From Deltaproteobacteria bacterium (GTDB lineage Bacteria; Myxococcota_A; Polyangia; HGW-17): 42,988 bases of DNA. This document shows positions 19,015 to 26,330 of this stretch, piece after piece. A program made the translations under genes and the position numbers. The notes under the pieces were generated by a model, which searched no databases, was not told where the DNA came from, and saw nothing but the letters and a program-made list of their open reading frames with translations. The stretch's first letter is position 1. Every line of letters starts with the position of its first letter. The DNA is taken from contig JAFGWM010000014.1 in the NCBI GenBank assembly GCA_016937155.1, forward strand, positions 1 through 42,988, given 5' to 3'.

Positions 19015-19575
19015 TTAATGTCTGCTTGCAAAGGAGGATTTATTTCTTTTTGACATCCTGACAGTTCGTCTCTTGTTTCTTTTTATTTGTCGCCTGGAAG
19101 CCACAGCATTACTCTTGTTTTTCCGTAGGGCTTTCTTTGCGGTGGCGGTTCTTGCTTTTCTCTTCAAATTAATACTTCGTTTTAATTTTACTTCTTTTAC
19201 CGAATTACTTTTTCTTGATAAAGCAACTGTCATCTTTTTCTCAGATTCCAAAGGCATCACACGGATTTTTTCCTTCTGGGACTCATCATTGAATTCATTA
19301 AGTGGAACATGTCTTTTCCTTGTAATAGTCAGAGCTTTCTTGGCAACAAAAGCCCTGCTTTTTTCTTCCAGTTCATCCAGACGGCTCAGTAAATCCCTTG
19401 TGTCCTCCCGCATACTTACATTACCTCTGTTGCGTTCAGTTCTGCGACCACTGAAATATCCGGCCATGAATGCAAGAACTGTAGCCATAACAAGGCCAAA
19501 TGCCAGGATCATTATCTGTTTTGAGTTCAGGGAGATTTCAGTTTTTTCTTCCAGTCTCTCAAGATTCCTGTTCAT
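19015..19575 (-). CDS. Single-TM protein with extremely basic tail, cotranscribed with argS
   Basis: The 186-residue product starts one base after the argS stop, with AGGAGGT upstream inside argS. Residues 19-43 form one hydrophobic segment (IMILAFGLVMATVLAFMAGY) followed at once by GRRTERNR. The C-terminal 90 residues are dominated by Lys, Arg, Ala and Ser (KRKARTATAKKALRKNKS, RRQIKRNKRRTVRMSKRNK), similar in composition to histone-H1-like tails. The positive charges directly after the TM suggest that the tail is cytoplasmic. Some deltaproteobacteria carry a SPOR-domain membrane protein next to argS, but no SPOR motif is visible here. Function unknown; nucleic-acid or ribosome tethering is only a guess. 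Confidence 0.75.
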   Translation of the reverse strand: MNRNLERLEEKTEISLNSKQIMILAFGLVMATVLAFMAGYFSGRRTERNRGNVSMREDTRDLLSRLDELEEKSRAFVAKKALTITRKRHVPLNEFNDESQKEKIRVMPLESEKKMTVALSRKSNSVKEVKLKRSINLKRKARTATAKKALRKNKSNAVASRRQIKRNKRRTVRMSKRNKSSFASRH

Positions 19576-19576
19576 T

Positions 19577-21331
19577 TTACACCTCCTGTGCTGATGTCAT
19601 GTATTGAGGGGACGATAATCCCAGAAGATTCAGTGCGTTACCTGTTACTACCTTAAAACATTCAATCCAGGCCAGTCTTGCCAGTGTTTTTTCATTATCC
19701 CAGGTTAATTCCCATCCCATGGACTGCTGAGTAGGTTTCGGCAAAACAGGGTCATCCTTGTAACGAGTATAGTAACTATTAAACATCCTACTTATTTCAA
19801 TCAGAAAATTTGCTATTTTATGCGGGCTTCTGGTATTTGCGGCATCCCACACAACCTGAGGAAACATCATCATGCTTTTGGTGATTTCCAGTTCATCATC
19901 AAGAGTTAATCTACCAAGTATCCCGGAGTCAACTTCTGTAAAATCCTTTTCGTATAATTCGTGAGCCTTAGCCAGGATTGAACATGCTCTTGCATGTCCG
20001 TACTGAGCATATTTTGCCGGATTTTCACGTGGATCCTCTGAGAGTGCCTGAGAGAGATCAAAATCAAGAGCAACATCATGACTTTTAGCAACGAAATACC
20101 ATCTTGTAACATCAGAGCCAATCTCACTTATAAGCTCATCAAGAGTTACAAAGTTTCCACTTCTTTTACCCATTGCAAGTTTCTCGTCGCCCTTTACAAG
20201 ACTGACAAACTGAACAAGAAGAACCTCGAGATCCGTTCCGCTATATCCCATGGCTTCAAGAGAAGCCCTCATCCTGGGAATATATCCATGATGATCAGCC
20301 CCCCACAAATCTATAAGATGATCATGACCTCTTCTGAATTTATCCAGATGATATGCAATGTCAGCAGCAAAATATGTAGGCTCTCCATTACTTCTGATTA
20401 AGACCCTATCCTTTTCATCTCCAAACTCAGTGCTCTTAAAAAATACAGCGCCTTCGGATTCATATAAAAATCCTTTATTTTCTAGAATTTCTCTCGCACT
20501 TTCCAGAGCACCTTTTTTGTGAAGCTCTTTCTCTGAATAATAAACATCAAAGGTAATATCAAGATCTTTAAGGGTTTTCTTGATTCCAGTCAAAGCACTT
20601 TCAATTGCAAACTCTTTAAATACATCCTCGTTATATCCGGTGGAAAACTCTGCGCCGCGTTCATTGAAAAAATCATTTGCGATACTGTAAACATATTCCC
20701 CATGATAACCATCTTCCGGAAATTCTATGGTTTCAACTGAAGAGTCAATTTTATTAAGTATTTCCAGATATCTTGCATAAACGGATTTTGCAAGATTATC
20801 AACCTGGCGGCCAGCATCATTCAGGTAATATTCACTTGTAACACTGTAACCGGCAAATCTTAATATCCTTGCCACGCTGTCACCTACAGCGGCTCCACGT
20901 CCGTGACCAACATGCATTGGACCGGTGGGATTAGCACTTACAAATTCAAGATTAATTTTTCCGGGTTTTTCTTCATGCTTCCCCCAGGATTTTTTTGAGG
21001 CAAGAATTCTTTGAATTCCTTCATAAAGCTGCTCGGTACTTAATTTAAAATTTATAAATCCTGGGCCTGCAATAGAAACTTCTGAGAAAACTCTGCTTCC
21101 TTTTGCATTCAAACCGGAAACTATCAGAGAAGCCAGTTCTCTTGGATTCTTCTTTAGCTTTTTTGAAAAAGCCATTGCAAAATTTGTCGAAAGATCACCA
21201 TGCTCTTTAATTTTGGGTGGTGAAAGAATTATATCTTTTTCGGAGACAGTCACTTCGAGATCATTGTCAGTAACTATATTTCCAATAACTTCCAGAATTT
21301 CATTTTTAAGCAGTTCGATGCAGTGAATCAT
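19577..21331 (-). CDS. argS: Arginyl-tRNA synthetase
   Basis: This 584-residue class I synthetase charges tRNA-Arg. The N-terminal ArgRS additional domain (1-95, KEHGDLSTNFAMAFSKKLKK) is followed by the HIGH-type motif HVGHGRG in NPTGPMHVGHGRGAAVGDS, and ADIAYHLDKFRRGHDHLIDL marks the catalytic core. The second signature is MGKRSGN with Met387, a usual variant of KMSKS in ArgRS. The C-terminal anticodon-binding helical domain ends at LGLSSP. Length is normal. GAGG lies upstream of the ATG, and a promoter with an overlapping palindrome is at 21354-21382. It is probably a two-gene operon with the basic membrane protein that follows. Confidence 0.97.
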   Translation of the reverse strand: MIHCIELLKNEILEVIGNIVTDNDLEVTVSEKDIILSPPKIKEHGDLSTNFAMAFSKKLKKNPRELASLIVSGLNAKGSRVFSEVSIAGPGFINFKLSTEQLYEGIQRILASKKSWGKHEEKPGKINLEFVSANPTGPMHVGHGRGAAVGDSVARILRFAGYSVTSEYYLNDAGRQVDNLAKSVYARYLEILNKIDSSVETIEFPEDGYHGEYVYSIANDFFNERGAEFSTGYNEDVFKEFAIESALTGIKKTLKDLDITFDVYYSEKELHKKGALESAREILENKGFLYESEGAVFFKSTEFGDEKDRVLIRSNGEPTYFAADIAYHLDKFRRGHDHLIDLWGADHHGYIPRMRASLEAMGYSGTDLEVLLVQFVSLVKGDEKLAMGKRSGNFVTLDELISEIGSDVTRWYFVAKSHDVALDFDLSQALSEDPRENPAKYAQYGHARACSILAKAHELYEKDFTEVDSGILGRLTLDDELEITKSMMMFPQVVWDAANTRSPHKIANFLIEISRMFNSYYTRYKDDPVLPKPTQQSMGWELTWDNEKTLARLAWIECFKVVTGNALNLLGLSSPQYMTSAQEV

Positions 21332-21353
21332 ATTACTCTACCTCACATATGGA

Positions 21354-21382
21354 ACATTATCCTACATGTAGGACAATGTCAA
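21354..21382 (-). promoter_or_regulatory. argS promoter with a palindromic operator-like site in its spacer
   Basis: On the minus strand, TTGACA (21377-21382) is followed by a -10-like GATAAT (21356-21361, 15-base spacer) or TAATGT (21354-21359, 17-base spacer). The whole spacer is an inverted repeat: a perfect 14-bp core TCCTACATGTAGGA (21360-21373), extended on both sides to 26 bp (21354-21379) with one mismatched pair. A protein bound there would cover the promoter, 23 bases upstream of the argS ATG. The half-sites TATCC/TGTCC separated by 8 bases resemble HipB-type operators, but no such regulator is in the window. Confidence 0.55.
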
Positions 21383-21425
21383 CTTTTGTATCCATTTGTA
21401 TTCTTTTTAGAGCATTTTTCGGCGA

Positions 21426-21992
21426 CTATGGGAGATAATTAATTGAAATAGAAGAGAAATTATTTGAGTCGGTTCCAGTATAGGACATTTCACTCCCGTC
21501 AAGAGTAATAGACTCAAAAGCATATGGTCCCTGACCATTATTTTCAGTAAATTCAAACCATACTTCATATACTCCAGGTAAAATATTGCTTCCTGTGTAA
21601 TCCTTAAGATCCCAGGTAAGATTAATTGTACCATGTCCCGTTCTGGTTGCGGATGTCACAGCATCTGCATCAGTGGAATCATAATCGCCCTTCCACCTGA
21701 ATAGGTAATAATCGTAATGGTAACCATACAATTTTATGGTTTTGATATAACTTCCATCTTCTTTCAAAAGCCAAACTGCTGCACAGTTTCTCGGAGCATA
21801 CTGACCATTATTTGAAACCGTTGTGAAACTTATCTGAAGTTCACCCATAAGTCCTGAGGAATTATTTGTATTGGAAGAATTGTTTTCTGTTATGTTATTG
21901 CTATTATTATTTAAGGTGGAATTATTTGTGTCATCACCATCATTACATCCCACAATCAGAATAGTCAGAAGAAGCAATACAAATCTATACAT
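21426..21992 (-). CDS. DUF2271-type lipoprotein
   Basis: The start is placed at the ATG at 21992, which has GGAGG five bases upstream; the ATG at 22004 lacks this. The 188-residue product starts MYRFVLLLLTILIVGC (lipid Cys16), continues with an Asn/Thr/Ser-rich linker (17-45), then a folded domain. That domain has DUF2271 features: CAAVWLLKEDGSYIKTIKLY, DAVTSATRTGHGTINLTWDL and LPGVYEVWFEFTENNGQGPY. DUF2271 domains have a beta-sandwich look (FlgD-Ig-like) and are sometimes near redox/iron-uptake genes. Location is likely periplasmic face or cell surface; function unknown. It stands alone, between argS and the TIGR04551 gene. Confidence 0.8.
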   Translation of the reverse strand: MYRFVLLLLTILIVGCNDGDDTNNSTLNNNSNNITENNSSNTNNSSGLMGELQISFTTVSNNGQYAPRNCAAVWLLKEDGSYIKTIKLYGYHYDYYLFRWKGDYDSTDADAVTSATRTGHGTINLTWDLKDYTGSNILPGVYEVWFEFTENNGQGPYAFESITLDGSEMSYTGTDSNNFSSISINYLP

Positions 21993-22101
21993 GTGCACCT
22001 CCATGCAAACATTCCAGCGTTTTATATACCTTCTTTTATGACTTTTTCAACAATTTTATGGAATGACGACTCTATAATTCAAGTGGATTTCAGAAAAGTT
22101 A

Positions 22102-24212: not shown

Positions 24213-26330
24213 TCAGTTGACGTCGGCACCGGGGAAAGCTCCCTCAGGAGCCAGCATAACCTTTATTTCAGAACCAATTTCTGTCGCAAGAACCATACCT
24301 TCACTTAAACCAAACTTCATTTTTCTTGGTTTAAGGTTTGAAACCACAACAACTGATTTTCCTTCAAGGATGGATGGGTCAGGATAGCTTTTTTTAATGC
24401 CACTGAAAATCTGCCTGAGACGACCTTCTCCCAGATCAAGCTCAAACCGTACAAGTTTATCTGCATTTTCCACAGCCTCGGCCTTGACAACTCTCGCACA
24501 TTTAAGGGCTACTTTGCTAAAGTCATCAAAGGATATCTCAGAAACTGCTTCATCGCGTTTTTCTGTTTTCAATTCCGGCACTTTATTTACAACTGATTTT
24601 TCAGGCATTTTTGTTTTTGCAGCGTCAATTCTAGCCCAACTGTCTTTAAGGGTGACTGTTCTGTTGAATACAGGATTGCCATCAGCACTGTCAAAGGGAT
24701 CCACATAAAAATATCCCTTCCGCTCGAATTGCCACCTGCTACCCTTAACAGCACTTCCAAGATATGGCTCCACCACAGAGTTTTTAAGAACCACCAGACT
24801 GTCAGGATTAAGAAAATCCAGATAAGAACCATCTGTATCCATTGGATTTTCCACTGTAAACAGCCTGTCATAAAGTCTAATCTCCACTCGCTGTCCATGA
24901 GAAGCACTAACCCAGTGTGATGTACCTCTGACTTTTCTTCCATCGGGTGAGGTCCCGCCTTTTGACTCAGGATCCCATGTACATTCAAGATATTCAATAT
25001 TCCCATCCGGGCCTTTTATGACTTTTTCACATTTAATAAGACATGCATACCGAAGACGAATTTCACCACCAGGTTTCAGCCGGAAAAACTTTCTTGGAGC
25101 ATCTTCTCTGAAATCTTCCTTTTCAATAAATATTTCTTTGGTCAACGGAACTTTTCTTGTTCCCATTTCATGTTTTTCAGGGTGAAGCGGAGCATCAAAC
25201 CATATGACCTCATTGTCTGGAAAATTTGTAATGACAACTTTTAGAGGCTCCAGTACGCCCATCACTCTGGGAGCAGATTCATTTAGATCCGTTCTTATGG
25301 AATGCTCCAATAGCCCAATGTCAACTGTGGAATTACGCTTTGCAACTCCAATCCTTTCACAAAAATTCCAGATTGATTCAGATGTGTACCCTCTACGCCT
25401 CAAACCACTTATTGTCGGGAGTCGTGGATCGTTCCATCCCTTTACGAGCTTCCTCTCGACCAGCTCAAGAAGACGACGTTTACTCATCACCGTATAATTA
25501 AGGTTCAGTCTGGCAAATTCATACTGATGGGGCCTGTTTTCCGTTGTAACATTATCCAGAAACCAATCATACAAAGGACGATGATTTTCAAACTCAAGAG
25601 TACAAATTGAATGTGTAATTCCTTCAATACTATCCTCGAAACCATGTGCAAAATCATACATTGGGTAAATGCACCACTTATCACCAAGCCGGTAATGGTG
25701 TCTATGAAGAACCCGGTATATGATTGGATCCCTCAGATTCATATTGGGCGATTTCATATCAATTTTAGCCCTCAGAAGTCTTTCACCATCACCAAATTTT
25801 CCATCTTTCATCTGCTGAAACAATTCCAGATTTCTTTCAACAGTGTTGCTTCTGGATGGACTGTCCACACCGGGCCGGTTGTAATCACCCCTCATCTCTT
25901 TTAACTGTTCGGGACTTAAATCATCCACATAAGCAAGACCTTTGGTAATTAATTCCACCGCCCATATGTAGAACTGATCAAAGTAATCGGATGCATAAAA
26001 AACCCTGCCATCAAATTCTGCACCAAGCCATTTTATGTCCTCAAGAATTGAATCAACATATTCCTCATCTTCAGTAATTGGGTTTGTGTCATCAAAACGA
26101 ACATTAAAAGTACCACCATAGTCCCTTGCCAAACCATAATTTAAAACAATGCTCTTTGCGTGACCTATATGAAGATAGCCGTTTGGCTCAGGTGGAAATC
26201 TGGTTGCAACCCTTCCTCCGTTTATGCCGGATTCAATATCCCCATCGATAATTTCCCGAATAAAATTATTAGCAGCAGATGGACTAGAACCATCATCCTG
26301 AGAGTAGCATATATTTGTAATTCTCATCAT
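24213..26330 (-). CDS. glnS: Glutaminyl-tRNA synthetase fused to a Trbp111/EMAPII-type tRNA-binding domain
   Basis: The 705-residue product has AGGAG nine bases upstream of the ATG at 26330. Residues 20-580 form a full class Ic GlnRS: FPPEPNGYLHIGHAKS with HIGH at 54-57, RFDDTNPITEDEEYVDSI, VMSKRRL at 281-287 as the KMSKS loop, and the beta-barrel anticodon-binding region. After a charged linker (about 575-600), residues 602-705 are an OB-fold tRNA-binding domain (FSKVALKCARVVKAEAVENA, RQIFSGIKKSYPD, VVVVSNLKPRKMKFGLSEGM, MLAPEG), the module seen as free Trbp111, at the C-terminus of MetRS, and in EMAPII/Arc1p. It should add non-specific tRNA affinity. GlnRS is usually about 550 residues without this domain. 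Confidence 0.95.
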   Translation of the reverse strand: MMRITNICYSQDDGSSPSAANNFIREIIDGDIESGINGGRVATRFPPEPNGYLHIGHAKSIVLNYGLARDYGGTFNVRFDDTNPITEDEEYVDSILEDIKWLGAEFDGRVFYASDYFDQFYIWAVELITKGLAYVDDLSPEQLKEMRGDYNRPGVDSPSRSNTVERNLELFQQMKDGKFGDGERLLRAKIDMKSPNMNLRDPIIYRVLHRHHYRLGDKWCIYPMYDFAHGFEDSIEGITHSICTLEFENHRPLYDWFLDNVTTENRPHQYEFARLNLNYTVMSKRRLLELVERKLVKGWNDPRLPTISGLRRRGYTSESIWNFCERIGVAKRNSTVDIGLLEHSIRTDLNESAPRVMGVLEPLKVVITNFPDNEVIWFDAPLHPEKHEMGTRKVPLTKEIFIEKEDFREDAPRKFFRLKPGGEIRLRYACLIKCEKVIKGPDGNIEYLECTWDPESKGGTSPDGRKVRGTSHWVSASHGQRVEIRLYDRLFTVENPMDTDGSYLDFLNPDSLVVLKNSVVEPYLGSAVKGSRWQFERKGYFYVDPFDSADGNPVFNRTVTLKDSWARIDAAKTKMPEKSVVNKVPELKTEKRDEAVSEISFDDFSKVALKCARVVKAEAVENADKLVRFELDLGEGRLRQIFSGIKKSYPDPSILEGKSVVVVSNLKPRKMKFGLSEGMVLATEIGSEIKVMLAPEGAFPGADVN

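Follow-up and report, generated by a model that had tools for sequence, protein, structure and literature searches.

Aminoacyl-tRNA synthetase genes are often controlled by T-box and other leader RNAs. Palindromic DNA operators are represented by that of the antitoxin HipB, with the consensus TATCC-N8-GGATA in which the N8 is free, and by those of the BlaI/MecI/CopY type, with the core TACA-N2-TGTA. The regulatory sites of the phylum treated here have, to our knowledge, been little mapped. A further system is CdbA of Myxococcus xanthus, a c-di-GMP-binding ribbon-helix-helix nucleoid protein. CdbA is reported (PMC7156744) to bend DNA and to interact in vitro with the promoter of cdbAB, with transcription hardly altered; the motif derived from ChIP consists of two direct copies with a 4-bp separation, about one helical turn, and at least one orthologue is present in all fully sequenced Myxococcales, with none found elsewhere. 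The essentiality of CdbA depends on CdbS, a PilZ protein (PMC10313047).

During the analysis of a 42,988-nucleotide stretch of DNA (hereafter designated the window), a 26-bp palindrome was noticed at the predicted promoter of argS, the arginyl-tRNA synthetase gene. Comparison with related genomes indicates that the palindrome probably (roughly 80%) acts as a transcriptional operator and belongs to a regulon that extends across the class of the window and is thin beyond it; the binding, the repression and the operon are what we infer from the sequences compared. No description of the 12-bp core CCTACATGTAGG or of such an operator was found in the papers searched.

Palindrome in the predicted argS promoter

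The argS gene (19577–21331, minus strand; 584 residues) is preceded by a ribosome-binding site, GAGGT (21340–21344, minus), placed 8 nt 5' of the ATG, and a co-directional DUF2271 gene (21426–22004, minus) lies upstream with a 94-bp gap. The predicted argS promoter, on the minus strand, consists of the −35 box TTGACA (21382–21377), the 17-bp spacer TTGTCCTACATGTAGGA (21376–21360) and the −10 box TAATGT (21359–21354). The spacer is almost wholly occupied by TCCTACATGTAGGA (21360–21373), a perfect 14-bp palindrome that encloses the conserved core CCTACATGTAGG (21361–21372) and widens to an ungapped 26-bp palindrome (21354–21379) with 13-bp arms, 12 of the 13 positions being paired. This dyad-symmetric site overlaps the predicted promoter, and its outer arms, which coincide with the promoter hexamers, are poorly conserved at other sites. 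The palindrome is a real, confirmed observation. The original prediction of a perfect 14-bp core extending to 26 bp with one mismatched pair was borne out, and its statement that the palindrome fills the spacer holds for the 14-bp core but not for the 26-bp form, which overlaps both hexamers; it had also carried the feature from 21354 to 21382, whereas the palindrome stops at 21379 and the remaining bases are the rest of the −35 box.

No other 26-bp palindrome in the window has one mismatch or fewer. Such a 26-mer appeared at least once in 2 of 100 first-order Markov resamplings (mean 0.02), and the expectation from composition is 0.04 per window. Perfect 14-mer palindromes are unremarkable by themselves (2 observed versus 3.3 expected).

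The argS promoter had no entry in a consensus promoter scan because its −10 box is weak, TAATGT matching TATAAT at 3 of 6 positions; GATAAT (21356–21361), at 15-bp spacing, is an alternative −10 box. The prediction is nevertheless supported by comparison of the genome of the window (G000, 95% complete) with that of the same genus (G001), both drafts, since the promoter block TACAAAAGTTGACA...GTGAGGT differs at only 2 positions, one of them inside the palindrome, while ungapped identity further upstream falls to 25/59. Moreover, argS of G002, which represents another genus, carries TATTGT at the same 17-bp spacing as TAATGT in the window.

Conservation at argS in relatives

A match to ArgS was obtained in 36 of 39 genomes; when the cut-off was tightened, 71 of 289 class genomes gave 73 matches. 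The upstream regions of 59 of these 73 (30 loci and 29 further stretches) were examined, the rest being 7 long matches from f14 and f26 genomes and 7 partial matches; a region was counted when CYTAC-N2-GTARG or its N3 form occurred with at most one mismatch within 250 bp upstream of argS. The N2 form (CYTACNNGTARG, at most one mismatch) was present in 16, the N3 form in 12 and either form in 27 of the 59 regions, whereas, among the matches listed, 80 distant argS loci taken as the outgroup gave the N2 form in 3, none of them exact, and the N3 form in none. Conservation in orthologous argS promoters is thus above background (27/59 versus 3/80), which backs the operator-like arrangement originally proposed, for which conservation in related argS promoters had been named as the test.

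The distribution differs markedly among families. The operator stood at argS in all 23 regions from f2 (2/2), f4 (2/2), f5 (1/1), f7 (14/14) and f8 (4/4), and in none of the 6 from f3 (0/1), f9 (0/1), f22 (0/1) and f26 (0/3), with 3/5 in the window's own family (f1) and 1/25 in f14. It was absent from the argS promoters of the same-family genomes G004 and G007, and likewise from that of G006, which was read in addition to the five f1 regions. In G001, one arm of the palindrome carries a substitution (CCTACATGTGGG); elsewhere pairing is kept as the arms change, for example in G010 (CTTACATGTAAG), and the central bases include CAGG and CGTG. Paired changes in the arms around a variable centre are as would be seen for a protein dyad.

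The placement of the operator relative to the argS promoter also varies. It lies inside the promoter spacer in the genus of the window, just past the expected −10 box and over the start site in G002, f2, f4, f5, f8 and 4 f7 genomes, and over the expected −10 box, starting 16 bp past TTGACA, in the 10 f7 genomes with the N3 form. In an alignment of 7 promoters, CCATATGTGAGG of the window (21341–21352, minus) falls where most relatives place the strong operator, just after the −10 box, and may be a degenerate second site.

A probable class-wide operator with varied targets

The conserved unit across the class is only 12–13 bp, CYTAC-N2/N3-GTARG. Of 39 genomes, 22 contain bare CCTACATGTAGG, with 35 sites in total versus 9 for the reversed control. 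Linked to a −35 element as TTGAC-N11..31-CCTACATGTAGG, the core is present in 26 of 240 class genomes, which together have 30 such sites, the reversed pattern giving none. In a draw from the whole phylum, 16 of 377 genomes had the operator; 10 of these (12 sites) were outside the class as against 3 control genomes, all likewise outside it, so that the excess beyond the class is small. Among 68 collected sites, nearly all the information resides in the 12-bp core and flank information is low; most of these sites were picked by the exact core, which makes the invariance of the core a matter of construction but not the low information of the flanks.

In relatives, a single genome carries as many as 3 exact cores; the genome of the window carries one. 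A search of G000 for further sites, as had been suggested, gave a single exact core and no enrichment of the degenerate pattern (5 versus 12 reversed) or of the 14-mer with at most two mismatches (9 versus 21 in the control). The four other CYTACNNGTARG sites of G000 all lie within long ORFs, and six of its 8 two-mismatch sites lie within ORFs, the two outside being L290 and L004. At L290 (G000:C32, near 13015), the intergenic two-mismatch copy of the palindrome precedes a gene for a small membrane-type protein, and a PilZ gene with the same orientation is located some 1.2 kb further upstream. The original view of the site as specific to argS is correct for the window's genome, in which the exact core is single-copy, but fails across the class, in which other genes too have this operator upstream of them.

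The TTGAC-linked operators precede PilZ, FtsK, ParA-like, SPOR and other genes, and bare cores precede Amidase_3 and transpeptidase genes. Target genes were called by the nearest long ORF, a chosen subset was checked by Pfam, and individual calls may err; at L039 and L049, for example, a smaller gene could fit between the site and the assigned ORF, and L244, L254, L278, L279 and several f10 and f15 sites gave no clear assignment. Pfam agreed with the calls for PilZ (6/6 picked as such), FtsK (2/2), Amidase_3 (2/2) and SPOR (2/2), and also matched the ParA-like AAA_31 and Transpeptidase families. Lon and a DsbA-like thioredoxin were matched as well, neither gene being adjacent to its site, as was OmpH (L253), whose gene runs antiparallel to the anchored TTGAC. 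An EAL match was below threshold (24.3 bits; cut-off, 31.3), Pfam gave no match for L059, L165, L247, L280 and L282, and L276 gave weak RHH-type matches only. No RecA- or LexA-like protein was seen on reading the downstream proteins at sites with assigned genes, and a LexA operator was rejected. At L059 and L060, in the same-family genomes G006 and G007, a perfect operator is followed about 30 bp on by the near-copy CCTACATGTGC; the pair precedes the gene of a protein (330 residues at L059) with a weak SCO1664-family match (20.4 bits; cut-off, 172.4).

Relative to the promoter elements, the site is found upstream of TTGAC at the PilZ genes of L054, L057 and L070, in the spacer in the window, at the expected −10 box for the PilZ genes and N3-form argS of f7, and at the expected start site for other argS genes. 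This spread of positions is that expected of a repressor. In f7 genomes such as G088, the spacing is N2 at PilZ (L239) and N3 at argS (L189), so a single binding protein would need to tolerate both.

Phased half-sites

Additional half-sites around the operator were counted for 40 promoter-linked sites thinned for redundancy, allowing at most one mismatch per half-site, and compared with 1000 block shuffles. Half-sites at offset 19 occurred in 14 cases versus a shuffle mean of 1.2 and maximum of 6; these cases are not all independent, since they come from 13 sites that include 3 ftsK promoters and 2 closely related PilZ promoters. There were 6 half-sites at offset 29, and in the opposite orientation 7 at offset 10 and 5 at offset 20. 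The sum over offsets 19, 29 and 39 and 10, 20 and 30, which were picked after preliminary inspection of the data, was 34, whereas the shuffles averaged 7.1 and never went beyond 17. No shuffle gave a value above 8 at any offset, a level that the offset-19 peak (14) surpasses and the offset-10 peak (7) does not. At L248, CGTAGG-N4-CGTAGG precedes ftsK. The window's own site has no clear accessory half-site around it. The phasing suggests cooperative binding, in which proteins would sit side by side in helical phase.

Candidate binding protein

In G357 and G396, two genomes of another class, the promoter carrying the operator precedes a gene of the TIGR04563 family, to which CdbA belongs. The encoded proteins, of 62 residues (70.9 bits) and 60 residues (76 with an earlier start; 70.8 bits), both exceed the family cut-off of 65. 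Their best solved-structure match is CdbA (6sbw; E values, 3.3e-16 and 3e-15, respectively), with 29 and 26 identities in 51 aligned residues; Lys8, Arg27 and Arg30 of CdbA are kept and Ser10 is replaced by Thr. The presence of the operator ahead of these genes makes a CdbA-type protein the leading candidate for the binding protein. It is quite possible, though we put it at somewhat under even odds, that the binding protein is a CdbA-family ribbon-helix-helix protein, repressing the regulon as well as its own gene and released by c-di-GMP.

In addition to the two genes under the operator, the phased half-sites across the regulon resemble the M. xanthus direct-repeat motif with its 4-bp gap of about one helical turn, and several of the targets are PilZ genes, so that the regulon touches c-di-GMP. 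CdbA too is linked to division, chromosome segregation and PilZ proteins (PMC7156744 and PMC10313047). The main site is nevertheless an inverted repeat, a rare palindrome within promoters, whereas M. xanthus CdbA is described as a nucleoid protein with a GC-rich direct-repeat consensus, more than 500 sites and little transcriptional effect, no palindrome being mentioned in the main text of the paper (PMC7156744). Furthermore, the cdbA-like genes of G357 and G396 could equally be one more target, and tblastn (E up to 10–20) of the 43-kb window, the G000 stretches and the other collected loci gave no homologue except at L276 and L277. We regard as more tentative still the generalization that CdbA-family proteins of related lineages are promoter-specific repressors acting through phased GTAGG half-sites and coupling c-di-GMP with genes for the septum, chromosome segregation and PilZ proteins and, here, with argS.

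Operator model and alternative explanations

In the model that we favor, a symmetric multimeric DNA-binding protein would read CCTAC/GTAGG half-sites throughout the class of the window, which is probably Polyangia (Myxococcota). This protein would nucleate on the inverted pair CCTAC-N2/3-GTAGG and extend to phased half-sites at many targets. At the argS promoter, where the site lies in the interval between the −35 and −10 boxes and abuts both, the bound protein would exclude RNA polymerase and thereby repress by occlusion an operon of argS and the downstream envelope-type gene; release of the regulator, perhaps by c-di-GMP, would open argS transcription. An activator bound at the same site would also be compatible with the data. 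The operator would be a newly defined one whose targets shift among lineages, from division and envelope genes to c-di-GMP receptors and the argS operon, placing a synthetase gene under a DNA site shared with septal genes, and its analysis supplies a testable candidate regulator.

Four other origins of the palindrome were weighed against this model. Chance assembly from AT-rich promoter hexamers is very improbable for the palindrome as a whole. In its favor, a perfect 14-mer is expected 3.3 times per window, the window's own genome shows no enrichment, and the outer arms, which overlap the promoter hexamers and show little conservation elsewhere, may indeed have arisen in this way; for the core, chance is contradicted by its conservation across other families and genes with no control match in the class. 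An RNA-level element (leader hairpin, AUG-UAG start-stop, hidden ribosome-binding site or riboswitch-type leader) would suit a synthetase gene, as with T-box and other leader RNAs, and the right arm of many relatives is at once a Shine-Dalgarno sequence and an ATG-TAG string. Such an element is nonetheless very improbable, because the site in the window and G001 lies upstream of the predicted start and hence outside the predicted transcript; moreover, the f8 genomes G016 and G033 have the centre AG and no ATG. An Rfam search of 21000–22100 (E up to 1) found nothing at the palindrome, its sole match being a sub-threshold SAM-II (20.3 bits; gathering threshold, 44) at 21144–21211, inside argS.

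Readings based on known repressor families fared no better, the HipA and BlaI families not being found in G000. The HipB-type spacing originally proposed can be seen in TGTCC-TACATGTA-GGATA, which has outer TCC/GGA 8 bp apart and resembles the HipB consensus on one side. The other arm is TGTCC, however, the inner TACATGTA recurs at sites of other families instead of being free, and the set of genes is different. First-look HipA_C candidates numbered none in G000 and G001, and HipA_C (PF07804) had no match in G000, G001, G002, G009, G010, G011, G014, G015 and G016, among others; it is present in 17 of 39 genomes with a distribution that does not track the operator, being unmatched in the operator-bearing G002, G010, G011, G014 and G016. 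An orphan HipB without HipA would be compatible with this absence, but a HipB-like operator as a whole is even less probable than an RNA element. Least probable of all is a BlaI/MecI/CopY-type operator, which shares the TACA/TGTA half-sites and their overlap with promoters but would have N0/N1 spacing here, and whose family (Penicillinase_R, PF03965) is found in 9 of 39 genomes and in none of the 13 of the window's order (G000–G012).

The gene downstream of argS

In the window, no more than a few bases separate the argS stop from the start of the next gene. It encodes 186 residues (19015–19575, minus) with an N-terminus homologous to the SPOR-protein family and no SPOR match; in f1, the two other argS-downstream proteins tested (G001 and G004) likewise keep this N-terminus, and the SPOR domain was found in neither (0/2). 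From f2, f4, f7, f8 and f9, 8 proteins encoded 3' of argS were tested and every one has the domain, and in f11 genomes the operator precedes a stand-alone SPOR gene (L067, L158 and L159). The SPOR gene after argS in f2, f4, f7, f8 and f9 raises the possibility that the target of regulation is the envelope gene and not argS. A SPOR relative also lies within the stretch 3' of argS in 15/16 f14, 1/1 f22 and 0/3 f26 genomes, families that are nearly operator-free. The idea that the operator tracks the SPOR gene therefore holds only in part: the link is not obligatory, because f9 and most f14 genomes keep the SPOR gene after argS without the operator. Elsewhere in the window, the glutaminyl-tRNA synthetase GlnRS (24213–26330, minus) has a C-terminal tRNA_bind domain (PF01588, 80.6 bits) added to the usual domains.
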